A stretch of 64,000 bases of DNA from Daejeonella oryzae DSM 19973 (GTDB lineage Bacteria; Bacteroidota; Bacteroidia; Sphingobacteriales; Sphingobacteriaceae). Position 1 is the first letter of the stretch. Every line of letters begins with the position of its first letter. Under the pieces are notes generated by a model. It did not search any database. It was not told where the DNA came from and saw only the letters and a program-made list of their open reading frames with translations. The stretch is taken from NCBI RefSeq assembly GCF_000422945.1, contig NZ_KE383964.1, forward strand, positions 248,001-312,000, in the 5' to 3' direction. The position numbers were made by a program, and so were the translations under genes. Shown piece by piece: positions 16,960-56,564 of this stretch.

Positions 16960-17553
16960 TTATTTTATAGTATGTCTTCTTTCCAGATTTTCGGCGATTG
17001 TTTTCAGCTTCAAATCCTTGGCTCTGAGCAATACTAAAAGATGGAAAAGTAAATCTGAGGCCTCATTAATCAGGTCTTCTTCGGTTTCATTTAAGGCGGC
17101 AATTACAGTTTCAACACCTTCTTCGCCAACTTTCTGAGCAATTTTATTCAGACCTTTTTTTTGTAATTTATTAACATAAGATCCTTCGGCAGGATTTGTA
17201 AAACGATCATCAATGATCTCTTCCAGTTTAAAAAGAAAGTTTTGGTTAAAATCTGTAGAAAAGCAACTTCTGGATCCGGTATGGCAGGTTGGTCCGTGTG
17301 GGTTGGCTTTTATCAGTAAAGTATCGTTGTCACAATCCAGCTTTATGGAAGTTACTTTTAAAATATTTCCGCTTTCTTCTCCCTTGGTCCACAACCGGTT
17401 TTTAGTACGTGAAAAAAAGGTGACTACATTTTCAGAAAGAGTTTGTTCATAGGCTTCTTCATTCATATAGCCAAGCATCAGCACTTCCAGAGTTTGGTCA
17501 TCCTGAATAATAACAGGTATAAGCCCTCCGCTTTTATTAAAATCGATGTTCAT
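16960..17553 (-). CDS. hisIE: Bifunctional phosphoribosyl-AMP cyclohydrolase / phosphoribosyl-ATP pyrophosphatase
   Basis: A 197-aa fusion. The N-terminal HisI domain (1-105) has the zinc/metal motifs KLDCDNDTLL and GPTCHTGSRSCF. The C-terminal HisE domain (about 110-197) has the VGEEGVETVIAAL and EASDLLFHLLVLL metal-binding helices. It carries out steps 2 and 3 of histidine synthesis, from phosphoribosyl-ATP to ProFAR. It lies 10 bp after hisF and 10 bp before the WD40 gene. Confidence 0.97.
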   Translation of the reverse strand: MNIDFNKSGGLIPVIIQDDQTLEVLMLGYMNEEAYEQTLSENVVTFFSRTKNRLWTKGEESGNILKVTSIKLDCDNDTLLIKANPHGPTCHTGSRSCFSTDFNQNFLFKLEEIIDDRFTNPAEGSYVNKLQKKGLNKIAQKVGEEGVETVIAALNETEEDLINEASDLLFHLLVLLRAKDLKLKTIAENLERRHTIK

Positions 17554-17563
17554 GATATAATAT

Positions 17564-18319
17564 TTAGGATCTGATTTCGATCTGTTTGTCTTTTAAAATC
17601 ATTTTTAATTCGGGTATTAGAATCTCTCCGTAATGAAAAACAGAAGCCGCTAATGCAGCATCCACATCGCATTGCTGAAACACATCTACAAAATGCTGAC
17701 TGTTTCCGGCTCCGCCGGATGCTATAACTGGTATTGAAACCATGCTATTCACTTTTTTTAATAAGTCGCAATCAAACCCGGCTTTCGTTCCATCGTGATC
17801 CATAGATGTGAGGAGAATCTCGCCTGCACCTCTTTCTTGTGCCTGCATGATCCAATCTTCGGTTTCCATTTCGGTAGCAATACGCCCGCCATTTAAATGG
17901 ACATAGTTTTTCCCGTTAATATTTTTAGTGTCAACTGCAACCACAATAAATTGCTTTCCGAAAGCAGCAGCAAATTCATCAATTAGGTTGGCATTGCGAA
18001 CGGCAGCAGAATTAATTGAAATCTTATCAGCTCCTGAATTCAAAAGGATGTCTGCATCGGCTATTTCATTAATACCGCCACCAATAGTAAAAGGAATATT
18101 AATTTGCCGGGCCACTGATTTAACAAGCTCTACAAGGGTTTTGCGGCGTTCGTGCGTGGCAGTTATATCCAGAAACACCAACTCATCAGCACCTTGTTGA
18201 GAATATTGCCAGGCCAGTTCCACCGGATCGCCGGCATCTTTCAGATCTACAAAATTAACGCCCTTAACGGTTCTGCCATCTTTTACATCCAGGCAGGGGA
18301 TTATTCTTTTTGCTAACAT
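17564..18319 (-). CDS. hisF: Imidazole glycerol phosphate synthase, cyclase subunit HisF
   Basis: A TIM-barrel protein of about 251 aa. The start chosen is the ATG at 18319, giving [16 protein letters not shown], the conserved N-terminus with catalytic Asp11. The frame stays open to an ATG at 18397, but those extra 26 residues do not resemble the family. The second catalytic Asp is in [11 protein letters not shown]. HisF uses ammonia from HisH to turn PRFAR into IGP and AICAR. It forms a heterodimer with HisH, encoded two genes upstream. Confidence 0.96.
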
Positions 18320-18405
18320 TATTCTTTCATTTGTCATCCAGTTTAGAACAGAATCTTTAAAATTCAGATTAAATTCTAAAGAACAGGGATGACTCAATTT
18401 TCTGA

Positions 18406-19155
18406 CTAAAAACTGATTAAAGCTTTCAGGTTCCAGGCTTTAATTTCATCTATAGAAATACGGTTTTCATAAATGGCTTTACCAACCACACATGATTCTA
18501 CTTTGATTTTTTGTAAATCTTCGATATCAGCCATCGAGCTGATTCCGCCGGATGCAATCAGCTTAATAAATGGTGAATGATCCAACAGTTTCTGGTAAAG
18601 TTCTACCGAAGCGCCACCAAGCTTTCCGTCTTTATTTATATCAGTACATAGAAAGCGAAAAAATCCTAAATCAAGACAACGGTCAACATATTCCATCAGT
18701 TTGATAGGAGAGCTTTCCATCCATCCCGAATATTTAATCACTTCATCCAATACATCAATAGCTACAACTATTTGATCCGAGCATTTCTCGGTTCCGCAAA
18801 TTTGAGAACTGAGATCCTTAAGAAATTCGGGATTCGTAATGGCCTGTGTTCCCACTATAACCCGGTGGATGCCTAAATCAATGAGTTCTTTTACTTTCTC
18901 AATACTCCGGACACCGCCGCCATACTGAACTTTGATCTCAGATTTATTGATGATATCAAAAAGGAATTTTTGATTGCTAAAATCGCCTTTTGCTCCGTTT
19001 AAATCTATAATATGAATAAACTCAGTGCCTTTGCTCTGATATTTCTCTATCATTTCTTCAAGAGTTACACCATAAAAAGTGGCTTGTTCATAATCTCCTT
19101 CACGTAAACGAACTACTTTGCCGTTAAGGATATCAATTGCTGGTATGATGTACAT
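18406..19155 (-). CDS. hisA: ProFAR isomerase HisA
   Basis: A 249-aa TIM barrel with the N-terminal [17 protein letters not shown] motif (catalytic Asp8), the second catalytic Asp in [14 protein letters not shown], and the phosphate-binding [12 protein letters not shown] loop. It carries out the Amadori rearrangement of ProFAR to PRFAR, step 4 of the pathway. It is placed between hisH (4-bp gap) and hisF. Confidence 0.97.
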
Positions 19156-19159
19156 GTAT

Positions 19160-19753
19160 TTAAACTAAGAGTGAGAAATTTTTTAAAAGTTGTTCCCCTG
19201 CTAAACCTGATTTTTCGGGATGAAACTGGACACCATAATAGTTGTCTTTTTGAATTACTGCCGAAAATTTTATCCCGTATTCAGTTGAGGCGATAGTAAA
19301 TTTAGGATTAAATTCAATAAAAAAGGAGTGTACAAAATAAAAGTATGCAACAGCAGGAATATCATCAAATAAATGATTGTTTGAGGAATATTCTACTGTA
19401 TTCCAGCCGGTGTGAGGCACTTTCAACTTTATACTGTTTTCAAAATGAATAGTTTTTAACGGAATTATTCCGGTGAGAACGGAATTACCCTCTTCAGAAA
19501 AATTAGTCAAAAGCTGCATACCAACGCATATCCCCAAAACCGGCTTTTTTATCTCACGGATAAATGGAACCATGCCGCTGTCATTTAGTTTTTGCATGGC
19601 AGCACCGGCATGCCCAACTCCCGGAATGATATACCGGTCGTATTTTTCCAGTTCCCCGGGCTCATTAATCATCCCGTAAGGAATGCCGAGTCGGTTTAAA
19701 GCGGCAGTTAATGAGAATATATTTCCGGCTCCGTAGTTTATAATTCCTGTCAT
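19160..19753 (-). CDS. hisH: Imidazole glycerol phosphate synthase, glutaminase subunit HisH
   Basis: A 197-aa class I glutamine amidotransferase. The nucleophile Cys is in GICVGMQLL (residue about 76) and the His/Glu pair is in FHPEKSG near the C-terminus. The N-terminus, TGIINYGAGNIFSL, is the standard HisH start. It supplies ammonia through the HisF barrel. It lies between hisB and hisA, on the same strand. Confidence 0.97.
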   Translation of the reverse strand: MTGIINYGAGNIFSLTAALNRLGIPYGMINEPGELEKYDRYIIPGVGHAGAAMQKLNDSGMVPFIREIKKPVLGICVGMQLLTNFSEEGNSVLTGIIPLKTIHFENSIKLKVPHTGWNTVEYSSNNHLFDDIPAVAYFYFVHSFFIEFNPKFTIASTEYGIKFSAVIQKDNYYGVQFHPEKSGLAGEQLLKNFSLLV

Positions 19754-19774
19754 TTTTTTGCGGATGATTTGTGA

Positions 19775-20866
19775 CTATAATACTCCTTTGGTGCTTGGTA
19801 ACTCGGTTCCGGTTATTTGAATTGCCTGTTTAATGCATTTGGCAAGGGCTTTAAAACTGGCCTCTATCTGGTGATGTGTGTTGGTTCCATCAATGATCTT
19901 TAAATTTAAATTCATGCCGGCATGTTCTGAAAACGACTTCATCCAGTGTTCGAACATTTCTGTAGGGAAATCCCCAACATATTCACGGTTAAATTCGCCT
20001 TCGTAAATAAAATAAGCCCGGTCAGAAAAGTCGATTGCGCATTGAACCAATGATTCATCCATAGGTAATAAAAAACCATACCGTTCAATTCCTTTTTTAT
20101 CTCCTAAAGCTTGCTTAAAAGCTTTTCCCAATGCGATGGCGCTGTCTTCTATTGTATGATGTTCGTCAATTTCAAGATCTCCCTTTACCTTCAGGCTCAG
20201 ATCAATTCCTGAGTGCTTCGCCAGCTGATCAAGCATGTGGTCATAAAACTTGAGGCCGGTATCCATATCGTGTTTTCCGCTTCCATCGAGGTTCAATTCG
20301 AGCTTTATACTGGTTTCTTTGGTATTTCTTTCAACTTTAACTAGCCGATCTTTTTTTGCTGTGAGGTAGTTGGTTATGAGTAGCCAATCTGAACTAGACA
20401 AAACTGCTCTCGGATCATTTTCTGACGCAAACCGAATGGCTTTACAACCTAAATTGAATGCTAGCTGCGTATCGGTTTCGCGGTCGCCGATGGTATATGA
20501 ATTCCAAAGATCTATAGAATTTCCAATCAGATATTGGGTAAGCATGCCTGTATTGGGTTTTCTGTTAGGACTGTTTTCTGCCGGCATTGAAGGATCAATA
20601 AAAATCTCGGCAAAAGTTATTCCTTCATTTTCCAGAATATCCATCATCTTTTGATGAGGCTTGATAAAAGTTTCTTCGGGAAAACTCGAGGTGCCGCGTC
20701 CATCCTGATTACTTACCATAACCAGCTCGTATCCAAAATCCTGAAGGCGTTTTAGTGAAGAAATAGCATAGGGGAAAAACTCCAGTTTCTCCAGACTGTC
20801 AATCTGCTCATCAGCAGGTTCTTTAATAATAGTACCATCACGGTCTATAAAAAGTACTTTCTTCAT
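19775..20866 (-). CDS. hisB: Bifunctional histidinol-phosphatase / imidazoleglycerol-phosphate dehydratase
   Basis: A 363-aa fusion. The N-terminal HAD phosphatase (about 1-165) starts KKVLFIDRDGTI with Asp8 and Asp10 as nucleophile and acid. The C-terminal dehydratase (about 170-363) has the metal-binding HHTIEDSAIALG and HHQIEASFKALA motifs. It covers steps 6 and 8 of the pathway. The two-domain form is known from Enterobacteria and Bacteroidota. Its ATG overlaps the hisC stop by 4 bp, indicating coupling. Confidence 0.97.
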   Translation of the reverse strand: MKKVLFIDRDGTIIKEPADEQIDSLEKLEFFPYAISSLKRLQDFGYELVMVSNQDGRGTSSFPEETFIKPHQKMMDILENEGITFAEIFIDPSMPAENSPNRKPNTGMLTQYLIGNSIDLWNSYTIGDRETDTQLAFNLGCKAIRFASENDPRAVLSSSDWLLITNYLTAKKDRLVKVERNTKETSIKLELNLDGSGKHDMDTGLKFYDHMLDQLAKHSGIDLSLKVKGDLEIDEHHTIEDSAIALGKAFKQALGDKKGIERYGFLLPMDESLVQCAIDFSDRAYFIYEGEFNREYVGDFPTEMFEHWMKSFSEHAGMNLNLKIIDGTNTHHQIEASFKALAKCIKQAIQITGTELPSTKGVL

Positions 20867-21933
20867 TTTAAAAGGTTTGTAGTTTTGGGTGTATAAGTTT
20901 GAAGATTTTGAATCAATAAATTATTTTCTTCAGGAGTTCCAACGGTTATGCGGAGACATCCCTCACATAATTCTATTTTCGATCGGTCTCTGACGATGAT
21001 TCCTTTATCAACAAGAAACTGGTAGATTTCCCGGGGGCTAGAACATTTAACCAACAGAAAATTTGCATCCGAAGGGAATATCTTGTTTACAAATTCAAGT
21101 TTTAAAAGATTACTGACCAGCTTTTCACGTTCAGAAATAGTTTGTCTGATCCACTCATTAACCTGATCTATATTTTGTAATGCATCCAGAGCCAGTTGCT
21201 GAGAGGCTTGATTAATATTGTATGGAGCTTTGACCTTGTTCAACACCTCAATGATCTCTTCGCTGGCGAAAGCCATTCCAACCCGTAATCCGGCAAGGCC
21301 CCAGGCTTTAGAAAGAGTTTGCAGAACAACCAGATTTGAAAACTCGGTCAGTTCCTGAATAAAAGTCTTTTGTCTGGAAAAGTTAATGTATGCTTCATCC
21401 ACAATGACTAAACCTGAGAAATTAGTGAGGATGGTTTGAATGGCATCCCGGTCTATGGAATTTCCGGTTGGATTATTTGGAGAACATATAAAAATCAGCT
21501 TTGTATGTTCATCAATAGCTTCAGCAATCCCTTCCAGATTTAACTGGAAATCGGGTAATAAATTGACTTTCCTGATTTCTATATCATTAATATTTGCCGA
21601 AACTTCATACATTCCGTAAGTAGGAGGAACGGTAATTACGTTGTCAATACCCGGACGGCAAAATGCCCGGAACAAGAGGTCAATCGCCTCATCGCTTCCA
21701 TTTCCAAGAAATATATTTTTGGCAGGAACGCCTTTAATTTCCGTAATTCTTTGTTTTACTTTCAGTTGTAAAGGATCGGGGTACCGGTTGTAATTTGTCT
21801 CAAGCGGAGATCCAAAACTGTTTTCATTAGCATCTAAAAATACAGAAGCTTCACCCTTATACTCATCTCTGGCAGAAGAGTAGGGGATTAGTTTTTTAAT
21901 ATTTTCCCGAAGGATATCATTTAGATTAAACAT
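20863..21933 (-). CDS. hisC: Histidinol-phosphate aminotransferase
   Basis: A 356-aa class I/II PLP aminotransferase. The cofactor Lys is in QTLSKAWGLAGLRVG, the substrate/cofactor loop is CSPNNPTGN, and the PLP-pyridine Asp is in VIVDEAYINF. It transfers an amino group from glutamate to imidazole-acetol phosphate, step 7. It follows hisD by 28 bp and overlaps hisB by 4 bp. Confidence 0.97.
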   Translation of the reverse strand: MFNLNDILRENIKKLIPYSSARDEYKGEASVFLDANENSFGSPLETNYNRYPDPLQLKVKQRITEIKGVPAKNIFLGNGSDEAIDLLFRAFCRPGIDNVITVPPTYGMYEVSANINDIEIRKVNLLPDFQLNLEGIAEAIDEHTKLIFICSPNNPTGNSIDRDAIQTILTNFSGLVIVDEAYINFSRQKTFIQELTEFSNLVVLQTLSKAWGLAGLRVGMAFASEEIIEVLNKVKAPYNINQASQQLALDALQNIDQVNEWIRQTISEREKLVSNLLKLEFVNKIFPSDANFLLVKCSSPREIYQFLVDKGIIVRDRSKIELCEGCLRITVGTPEENNLLIQNLQTYTPKTTNLLK

Positions 21934-21961
21934 TTTATTTATTTTTTTGAGGAACCGGATC

Positions 21962-23248
21962 TTATTTTAGACGCACACTTACCGCATTTTTATGTGCCTG
22001 TAACTGTTCCATATTTGCTAAAATTTCAACTGTGGGTCCCAAATTTTTAATTCCGCTTTGGGTAATATGCTGGAAGGTAATCTTCTTAACAAAAGAATCA
22101 ACTGAAACTCCTGAATACGCTTTAGCATAAGAACTTGTCGGAAGCGTATGATTAGTTCCTGAGGCATAATCTCCAACACTTTCAGGAGTTAAATGTCCCA
22201 GAAAAACTGAACCGGCATTGATGATACTTTCTGTAATAGTTTCCCATTGATCTGTTGCCAGGATCAGGTGCTCCGGGGCATATTCATTACTAAAATTCAT
22301 CGCTTCGCTAAGATCATCTACCAAAAGGGCATATGAATTGGAAATAGCTTTTGCAGCAATCTCAGCACGGGGCAAAGCCTGAATTTGCAATTGCAGCTCC
22401 CTGATAGTTTTAGTTATCAGATCAGTTGAAGTGCTTACTAAAACCGCCTGACTATCAATCCCGTGTTCGCACTGTGCCAGCATATCTGCAGCTACAAATA
22501 CCGGATTGGCACTCTCATCTGCAATTACCAAAACTTCTGAGGGCCCGGCTGGCATATCAATTGCAGTTTGTGAATTGGCCTGGATAAAGGTTTTTGCCCT
22601 TGTTACAAACTGGTTTCCCGGCCCATAAATCTTATCTACTTTTGGGATGCTTTCAGTTCCATAGGCCATAGCAGCAACAGCTTGTGCACCACCTGCTAAA
22701 AAGATTTTATCTATCCCGAGTAACTGCGCACTAAAGGCGAGGTAACCGTTTATTTTTCCGTCTTTTTGAGGAGGAGAACAAACTACTATTTGCTTGCAGC
22801 CGGCTAACTTAGCTGGTATACCAAGCATTAAGAAAGTGCTTGGCAGAACGGCGGTTCCTCCCGGAATATAAAGCCCAACCCGTTCAATCGCCCGGTTTTC
22901 ACGCCAGCAGGTAACACCGGGAGTTGTTTCTACTTTTGGCTCCGCAAATATCTGACTCTCATGAAACTTTTTAATGTTGTTATAGGCTGTGATGATGGCC
23001 TTTTTTTCATCGTCAGCAACAGATTCAGCAAGAGATGCTAGCTCTGATTCTTCCAGATATAATTTCTCCAAATCTACTCTGTCAAATTGTTTGGCGAAGT
23101 TCCTTAATGCCTCATCTCCCTTCTCTCTCACAGTTGAAATAATGTTCTCAACAGCTGACGAAATCGAATGATCAGAATCAATGTTCCGCTGACATAAGTC
23201 CTGAACTTTTGATTTAGTTAATTCATTTAAGTTGTAGATTTTAAGCAT
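21962..23248 (-). CDS. hisD: Histidinol dehydrogenase
   Basis: A 428-aa zinc-dependent NAD enzyme. Family motifs include YIPGGTAVLPSTFLMLGIPA, YGPGNQFVTRAK, IDMPAGPSEVLVIAD, the zinc/catalytic AQCEHGIDSQ stretch and EYAPEHL with its general-base His. It carries out the last two oxidations from histidinol to histidine. The length is standard. It is the second gene of the operon, 36 bp after hisG. Confidence 0.98.
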   Translation of the reverse strand: MLKIYNLNELTKSKVQDLCQRNIDSDHSISSAVENIISTVREKGDEALRNFAKQFDRVDLEKLYLEESELASLAESVADDEKKAIITAYNNIKKFHESQIFAEPKVETTPGVTCWRENRAIERVGLYIPGGTAVLPSTFLMLGIPAKLAGCKQIVVCSPPQKDGKINGYLAFSAQLLGIDKIFLAGGAQAVAAMAYGTESIPKVDKIYGPGNQFVTRAKTFIQANSQTAIDMPAGPSEVLVIADESANPVFVAADMLAQCEHGIDSQAVLVSTSTDLITKTIRELQLQIQALPRAEIAAKAISNSYALLVDDLSEAMNFSNEYAPEHLILATDQWETITESIINAGSVFLGHLTPESVGDYASGTNHTLPTSSYAKAYSGVSVDSFVKKITFQHITQSGIKNLGPTVEILANMEQLQAHKNAVSVRLK

Positions 23249-23284: not shown

Positions 23285-24136
23285 TTAAAGGATAATTTTC
23301 TCTATCGGCATCACGACAATACCCTGTGCTCCGGCAGCCTTTAATAAGGTTATTTTCTCCCAAAAGTCTCTTTCTGGAATAACAGTATGGATGGCAACCC
23401 AGCCCTCTTCGGCTAATGGAACTATAGTTGGACTCTTAACTCCGGGTAACAATTTAATGATTTGTTCAACATTTTCAGCGGCGGCATTCAGTACTACATA
23501 TTTAGTTTCTTTAGCCCTCAACACCGACTGTATTCTCTGAATTAATTCCTGAATCAGCGGATTGTCTTCTTCGCCTTTTCGGCCTATTAAAATCGCCTGG
23601 GAGGACATCACATCTGCAAATGGTTTTAAGCCGTTGCTTTTTAAGGTACCACCTGTAGAAACAATATCAAAAATGGCATCACTTAATCCCAGTCCGGGAG
23701 AGATTTCAACTGAACCGGATATCGTTCTGATTTCAGCATCGATCTGATTTTTATCAAGAAATTTTTTAAGGATTACCGGATAGGAGGTAGCAATTGCCTT
23801 GCCTTCCAGATCCTGTAAAGTTTCTATTTCAGTATTGTTCTGAACAGCTAATTTTAAGGTGCATTTGCCAAAACCCAGCAGCTGTAAAAAGCTTACTTCA
23901 ACTTCAGTTTCGCTGATGACATTTTCACCAACTATTCCAAGATCGGCAATGCCATCCTGTACGTATTCAGGAATATCATCATCACGTAAGAAAAGTATTT
24001 CTAAAGGGAAATTTGATACTGTTGAGATTAGGGAGCTTTTATAGTTTTCGAAACTTAAGCCACAATTTTTAAGAAGTTCAACAGATTTTTCGTTCAACCT
24101 ACCCGATTTTTGGATAGCAATTTTGAGTGTTTTCAA
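23285..24136 (-). CDS. hisG: ATP phosphoribosyltransferase (long form)
   Basis: A 283-aa HisG of the long, self-sufficient type. The catalytic domain has DLGIVGENV and the PRPP-binding loop DIVSTGGTLKSNGL. The C-terminal regulatory domain (about 210-283) ends with GAQGIVVMPIEKII, as in histidine-inhibited enzymes. No separate HisZ is needed. The start is TTG at 24136, because an in-frame stop lies two codons upstream and the resulting N-terminus fits the family. It is the first structural gene, behind the leader peptide at 24205-24276. Confidence 0.96.
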   Translation of the reverse strand: MKTLKIAIQKSGRLNEKSVELLKNCGLSFENYKSSLISTVSNFPLEILFLRDDDIPEYVQDGIADLGIVGENVISETEVEVSFLQLLGFGKCTLKLAVQNNTEIETLQDLEGKAIATSYPVILKKFLDKNQIDAEIRTISGSVEISPGLGLSDAIFDIVSTGGTLKSNGLKPFADVMSSQAILIGRKGEEDNPLIQELIQRIQSVLRAKETKYVVLNAAAENVEQIIKLLPGVKSPTIVPLAEEGWVAIHTVIPERDFWEKITLLKAAGAQGIVVMPIEKIIL

Positions 24137-24200
24137 TTTTTATATGAATTAGACCAGAAAATATATTAAGAAAGAGTTTCACTTAGAAACGTACAAATTT

Positions 24201-24227
24201 ATCATTAACGCCACTCGTGGCGATGAT
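24201..24227 (-). promoter_or_regulatory. Hairpin over the end of the his leader ORF
   Basis: On the minus strand, ATCATCGCCA pairs with TGGCG...ATGAT around a CGAG loop: a 5-bp GC-rich stem plus a 5-bp lower stem separated by a TTA bulge. It covers the last His codons and the stop of the leader ORF. There is no T-run after it, so it is not a classical intrinsic terminator; it may be a pause or anti-terminator stem. Confidence 0.6.
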
Positions 24228-24276
24228 GCAGATGTAGTTGATGAGTAAAAACTGTATTCATAATTTCTGGTCCCAT
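24205..24276 (-). CDS. hisL: his operon leader peptide (attenuator)
   Basis: A short ORF of 23 codons from ATG 24276, or 18 codons from ATG 24261 (MNTVFTHQLHLHHRHEWR). Nine consecutive codons contain five His (HQLHLHHRH), far above chance, directly upstream of hisG. Ribosome stalling at these codons under histidine shortage would change folding of the leader RNA. Two structures are visible: a hairpin over the last His codons and stop (24201-24227), and a 9-bp long-range repeat, TTTCTGGTC at 24264-24272 with GACCAGAAA at 24152-24160 (plus-strand letters). The second joins the leader start to the region just before hisG. No classical poly-U terminator is evident, so the exact mechanism is inferred. 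Confidence 0.85.
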   Translation of the reverse strand: MGPEIMNTVFTHQLHLHHRHEWR

Positions 24277-24292
24277 ATAAACAGGAAGTGTG

Positions 24293-24300
24293 CAAATATA
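24293..24300 (-). promoter_or_regulatory. -7 promoter element of the his operon
   Basis: On the minus strand this reads TATATTTG, a full match to the Bacteroidota -7 consensus TAnnTTTG. Transcription would begin near 24287, about 10-25 bases before the leader ORF. No good -33 TTG occurs at 19-21 bases. The position supports the leader ORF being transcribed ahead of hisG. Confidence 0.55.
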
Positions 24301-24428
24301 CTAATTGAAACTAAAAACATGCATAATAATTGATATTCAAGCAATTTTGACTTTTCTATGTTCTTTGTAGTTAATTTGTATTGCTATTAAAAATTTGGGT
24401 ACAAGCGAAATATCATTAGTTTTGATCA

Positions 24429-36659: not shown

Positions 36660-36739
36660 GCCCAGCTGGCGGAACTGGTAGACGCGTCGGTCTCAAACAC
36701 CGATAGGAAACTGTGCCGGTTCGATTCCGGCGCTGGGTA
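36660..36739 (+). tRNA. tRNA-Leu (anticodon CAA)
   Basis: An 80-nt class II tRNA. Acceptor stem GCCCAGC/GCTGGGT (one G-U pair), anticodon stem TCGGT/ACCGA with loop CTCAAAC giving anticodon CAA, and T-arm GCCGG/CCGGC around TTCGATT. CCA is not encoded. It starts 7 bp after the hscB stop. Confidence 0.95.
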
Positions 36740-56479: not shown

Positions 56480-56564
56480 GCGGATGTGGCGTAATTGGTA
56501 GCCGCACCAGACTTAGGATCTGGCGCTGAGAGGCGTGTGGGTTCGAGTCCCTCCATCCGCACCA
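56480..56564 (+). tRNA. tRNA-Leu (anticodon TAG)
   Basis: A class II tRNA of 85 nt including an encoded CCA. Acceptor stem GCGGATG/CATCCGC, anticodon stem CCAGA/TCTGG with loop CTTAGGA giving TAG, long variable arm CGCTGAGAGGCG, and T-loop TTCGAGT. It has its own promoter and terminator. Confidence 0.96.

Follow-up and report, generated by a model that had tools for sequence, protein, structure and literature searches.

The region upstream of hisG in this Daejeonella genome raises the question of how a histidine-rich leader peptide could control a biosynthetic operon when no terminator lies between the two. The leader has 18 codons and is encoded on the minus strand of the window (the whole stretch of DNA that was analysed, 64 kb in length), upstream of a hisG-D-C-B-H-A-F-IE operon. 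Our analysis of the leader, its RNA helices and its relatives suggests that the element is probably a ribosome-mediated His attenuator, the output of which is the initiation of hisG translation without a Shine-Dalgarno sequence and not the termination of transcription.

The leader peptide and its conservation in the Sphingobacteriaceae

A check of the sequence located all of the elements of the earlier note at the minus-strand positions given there (Table 1). Between the −7 element and hisG lies the short His-rich ORF that it had described, which reads as 18 codons from the ATG at 24261 to the stop at 24207–24205, or as 23 codons from an alternative in-frame ATG at 24276. The peptide includes the stretch HQLHLHHRH, with five His in nine codons, and its adjacent His pair occupies codons 12–13. 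So dense a stretch of His with no stop (five in nine codons) occurred only once in the six frames of the 64-kb window, against an average of 0.15 in mononucleotide shuffles. Two tRNA genes (Rfam) were also seen in the window, at 36660–36739 and 56480–56561 on the plus strand.

Table 1. Positions in the window of the his leader element and the operon downstream of it.
Feature	Position	Strand	Basis
−7 promoter element TATATTTG, Bacteroidota TAnnTTTG type	24293..24300	−	sequence; family conservation
P0 5′ arm (leader 5′ UTR and start codon), pairs with 24139–24165	24259..24281	−	fold; co-evolution with pre-hisG arm
Leader peptide ORF, 18 codons, MNTVFTHQLHLHHRHEWR and stop	24205..24261	−	sequence; conserved in family
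P2 5′ strand (leader codons 3–10), pairs with 24173–24195	24233..24253	−	fold; co-evolution
P1 hairpin with last His codons and leader stop	24201..24227	−	fold; 96% of cells paired, 40 diverse sequences
P2 3′ strand, contains HP2	24173..24195	−	fold; co-evolution; compensatory changes
HP2 hairpin GUUUC-UAAGU-GAAAC	24176..24190	−	98.5% of cells paired; compensatory changes
P0 3′ arm, ending 2 nt before hisG start codon	24139..24165	−	fold; co-evolution
hisG, ATP phosphoribosyltransferase, TTG start	23285..24136	−	TIGR00070 and TIGR03455 above cut-off
hisD, hisC, hisB (bifunctional), hisH, hisA, hisF, hisIE	16960..23248	−	NCBIfam

Among named relatives, those whose hisG is closest to that of the window belong to Daejeonella (Sphingobacteriaceae). 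The hisG upstream regions collected from relatives yielded a non-redundant set of 165 sequences from the Sphingobacteriaceae, spread over more than 20 genera, with a His-rich leader of the same build before hisG; a few members of the family have no His leader. The leader is usually 15–20 codons long, and its stop lies ∼55–87 nt before hisG in most sequences. Of 160 family sequences, 141 have the adjacent His pair at codon 12 or 13, whereas its positions are scattered in other families, a fixity that is partly explained by relatedness within one family. The earlier note had named two outcomes that would count against the leader, the lack of conserved His codons in close relatives and a transcription start downstream of 24205. 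So far neither has come up: the His codons are kept in the relatives, and a predicted TAnnTTTG box lies upstream of the leader in 159 of the 165 sequences. The observation of the His-rich leader is real, and its conservation across a bacterial family is confirmed.

A covariance model built on the leader, P1 and HP2 matched 78 of the 81 genomes of the order, all of them inside the Sphingobacteriaceae. In 149 genomes of the class, its only matches outside the family were two leaders of one other family and one unrelated site. The two leader matches were weak and belonged to Flavobacterium-type genomes with classical terminators, and the third match (G334) has, to judge from its sequence, no hisG downstream of it. 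Genomes that have the HP2 core carry a single copy, which lay beside hisG wherever coordinates were compared. A different arrangement was seen in genus g5 (L021, L131, L183 and L187), where the leader has 10–11 His, HP2 is missing, the spacer is long and hisG starts with ATG.

Long-range and mutually exclusive helices

The leader RNA of the window folds with z = −4.05 relative to dinucleotide shuffles, none of 200 shuffles being as stable. Across 154 family sequences the mean z was −3.3, with P0 predicted in 147 and P2 in 152. Both helices were formed together in 93% of real sequences (n = 60) and in only 8% of position-keeping shuffles. The perfect 9-bp inverted repeat of the earlier note, 24272–24264 with 24160–24152, is present and forms the core of P0, a 22-bp interrupted helix of the minimum-energy fold (24281–24259 with 24165–24139); the two hairpins that it had pointed out are P1 and HP2. 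P0 covers the hisG upstream region to −3 in the window, and across 145 sequences the median distance from its end to the hisG start is 14 nt. The arms vary widely between species, from GACCAGAAA/UUUCUGGUC in the window to AAUCAGGAACCAA/UUGGUCUGAUU, UUAUUAAUA/UAUUAAUAA and AAAAGAC/GUCUUUU in others, and alignments of sequence groups made from sequence alone recovered P1 and HP2 but mostly misaligned P0 and P2.

Co-evolution was analysed by pairing a segment either with the partner from its own species or with partners swapped from other genera, for 13 segment pairs in 17 genera. The leader 5′ UTR paired better with the pre-hisG arm (P0) within species than when swapped (p = 7.6e-5), and so did the leader codons with the HP2 region (P2; p about 1e-4); the signal was weak in a first test in which the 3′ segment included HP2 and became clear after the segments had been separated, a split chosen post hoc. 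Base composition could inflate such a signal, for which the other 11 of the 13 segment pairs serve as controls, and none of these showed a gain within species over the swaps in the 17 genera. P0 was no better than swaps in Mucilaginibacter (g31) or genus g3. Two other pairings were considered and set aside. Base pairs that the leader could form directly with the start codon of hisG (in Daejeonella, AGUUUUCA with UGAAAACU) displayed no co-evolution (leader against start, p = 0.96), and CCAGAAA in hisG codons 8–10, picked by eye as an alternative partner of the pre-hisG arm, is not shared by other genera.

HP2 has the family consensus GUUUC-UACGU-GAAAC and presented changes on both sides in four of its five pairs, including C-G to G-C and G-C to U-A. 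Compensatory changes were found in HP2 and in P2 alike. These two helices are mutually exclusive because they use the same bases, and a conserved pair of alternatives of this kind is the hallmark of a switch. The leader and its RNA structures are solid.

Missing terminator and the start codon of hisG

The earlier claim that no GC stem with a U-run follows the leader was borne out, as there is no terminator-like site in 24100–24420 of the window and a permissive scan of the 165 family elements found no GC-rich stem with a T-run, only weak matches in 13 of them, all at P1. These matches, together with the GC hairpin that P1 forms in many species, are what could be said for classical transcription attenuation with P1 or HP2 acting as an intrinsic terminator that is weak or cryptic. 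The Ts that follow P1, however, are scattered and show no conservation, HP2 is rich in A and U and in many genera has C-rich sequence after it, and strong terminators do exist at trp in the same genus and at the His leaders of most related families, all of which renders such a terminator highly improbable.

In related families, a GC stem with a T-run and an ATG start of hisG accompany most of the His leaders, the terminator-bearing ones being L022, L024–L028 and most of L214–L235 in other Bacteroidia families, and L279 and L284 in Flavobacterium. In the genome of the window itself, the trp operon (L247) has a Trp-Trp leader, followed ahead of trpE by a hairpin of 10 bp, GC-rich in its core, and a T-run, as in a classical attenuator; the pattern scan misses this hairpin because its loop is 9 nt. 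Several of the ilvD upstream regions of Daejeonella (L254–L264) carry an Ile/Leu/Val-rich leader ORF with a hairpin and T-run, and no such leader was found directly upstream of the window genome's own ilvD. Since terminators are kept at trp in the same genome and at ilv in other Daejeonella, the change concerns the his operon of the family and not attenuation in the organism generally. The conserved leader and the terminator that is absent here, yet present in most sister families and at trp, support what the earlier note had proposed, namely attenuation through a His leader whose read-out is not a terminator. In another family, one His-rich leader (L234, genome G333) has no obvious GC terminator and a possible TTG start of hisG, and is perhaps an independent case.

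A translational alternative had been among the suggestions of that note, and the start codon of hisG points to it. In the window this codon is the TTG at 24136. TTG or GTG starts occur in 149 of the 150 family sequences in which hisG directly abuts the element (short spacer), whereas 13 of the 14 with extra intervening sequence (long spacer) start with ATG. A weak start codon has no obvious use in transcription attenuation. Its tie to direct abutment points to a translational read-out, and the putative inhibitory helix P0 overlaps the initiation region of hisG, as is characteristic of a translational attenuator. Against this stands a Daejeonella with a 2.3-Mb genome (L020), in which hisG has kept its TTG start and the upstream His leader is missing.

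Among the long-spacer sequences, L019 and L130 (also L125 and L129; relatives from genus g4) have ∼70–100 nt extra between the P0 arm and a hisG that starts with ATG. In L019 and L130 the extra sequence, as read by eye, includes a small ORF, the stop codon of which either overlaps the start of hisG (ATGA) or lies directly next to it (TAA-ATG), and TTGAA is still found at the ancestral start position of hisG. The joining of this small ORF to the ATG of hisG would be expected if translation were handed on from one to the other.

Rho-dependent attenuation would be another read-out, in which the position of the leader ribosome decides whether Rho loads after the leader and terminates transcription before or within hisG, the rod of P1, P2 and P0, together with HP2, controlling access. 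It would fit the family's element, in which an intrinsic terminator was not found, and the C-rich stretches that follow HP2 in many genera, and Rho has been proposed for terminator-less leader peptides in Actinobacteria (PMC1262725). The Daejeonella element, however, has no C-rich stretch, the distance between leader stop and hisG is short for Rho in most sequences, and the tie between a TTG/GTG start and direct abutment would be left unexplained. We therefore consider Rho unlikely as the read-out, although it could still act as polarity after a translational shut-off.

Ribosome position and comparison with known systems

Under the preferred reading, control of hisG translation initiation, the leader RNA would by default zip into one long rod from P1 through P2 to P0. 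The rod would hide the leader's own start as well as the AU-rich initiation region just upstream of the weak hisG TTG, and the operon would be off. When charged His-tRNA runs short, ribosomes would stall on the His codons of the leader; the stalled ribosome would block P1 and P2, HP2 would form and P0 would stay open. A second ribosome at the leader start, ∼30 nt behind the one at His codons 12–13, may then mask the 5′ arm of P0 directly, so that the hisG initiation region would be freed and the operon turned on. An alternative route would be kinetic, P0 forming late where the P2 zipper is missing. To our knowledge, Bacteroidota ribosomes do not use Shine-Dalgarno pairing. Initiation without Shine-Dalgarno in Flavobacterium is tuned by structure between −20 and +20 and favours start codons whose first base is adenine (PMC6847099).

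Ribosome positions were modelled on equilibrium folds. A ribosome anywhere in the His codons of the window leader leaves P0 intact, and on the family average, too, a single ribosome stalled there did not open it. The block by the leader ribosome of one of the alternative helices is a step seen in folding models. As a stalled ribosome alone leaves P0 closed in these folds, the sign of the regulation would have to come from kinetics or from a queued ribosome. When a ribosome was placed on the leader AUG of the window, P0 was abolished and the modelled accessibility around the hisG start doubled, from 0.32 to about 0.66–0.67. Averaged over the family, P0 responded in the same way, whereas the queued ribosome gave a small gain in modelled accessibility from −20 to +3 (0.55 to 0.58), with 0.44 to 0.61 from −30 to −10. 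The ∼30 nt spacing between the leader start and the fixed His pair would allow a second parked ribosome. We infer the sign of regulation, the queued ribosome and the translational read-out from this picture, and its most specific form is tentative: a family-wide attenuator that counts queued ribosomes, with one stalled at codons 12–13 and a second on the leader start masking the P0 that hides the SD-less hisG start, in which control of translation initiation may have replaced an ancestral terminator read-out.

The leader start is more hidden in the full fold (accessibility 0.25) than the hisG start region (0.5–0.6). This would agree with P0 mainly shutting off the leader ORF after transcription of hisG, as a self-timer that confines translation of the leader to pioneer rounds, with hisG output set by re-initiation or by decay of the rod mRNA. 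P0 in the window, however, covers the region upstream of hisG as well, and the start-codon pattern points to hisG initiation, which makes such a timer quite improbable.

The textbook his switch thus seems to have been rewired in the Sphingobacteriaceae to act on protein synthesis. The element bears on how leader RNAs could switch translation in Bacteroidota; it is short, conserved over the whole family and, as far as seen, without ligands or accessory proteins, and it makes clear predictions. With a terminator at his in most related families and at trp in the same genome, it also offers a natural comparison in which a change of read-out during evolution can be studied directly. The element is absent from Rfam, and we found no description of it in the literature searched, which for attenuation in Bacteroidetes comprised the openly readable papers.

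The enterobacterial his attenuator (hisL; Rfam His_leader) shares with it the His-rich leader peptide, the mutually exclusive helices and the position upstream of hisG. Of the features of that classical type, the intrinsic terminator is the one not found: the element behaves like a leader-peptide attenuator, yet has no terminator hairpin with U-run, and its long-range helix extends as far as the start region of hisG and spans the start of the leader itself as well. The Rfam His_leader model gave no match at the gathering score or at E values up to 5. In translational attenuators of the ermC type, which sense a drug and hide a Shine-Dalgarno sequence, the leader ribosome governs the start of the next gene through alternative helices. 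The proposed his element would share this control of start access, whereas its signal would be charged His-tRNA and no Shine-Dalgarno sequence is involved. Other Bacteroidia families, from the same taxonomic class, also have a His-rich leader before hisG, mostly with a GC stem with T-run and an ATG hisG, neither of which is present in the short-spacer form of the Sphingobacteriaceae; a structured hisG leader and leader-peptide attenuation have been reported in Flavobacterium psychrophilum (PMC9723704). Among described leaders with no terminator, the one closest to it is the LEU element of actinobacterial leuA, which likewise combines an amino acid leader peptide with a base stem reaching the region where translation of the biosynthetic gene starts (PMC1262725). 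Its mechanism is debated, a protein-binding site being favoured in that study, and it uses a pseudoknot and has Leu codons paired with a Shine-Dalgarno box, whereas the partner of the leader 5′ UTR in the present element is a region with no SD.
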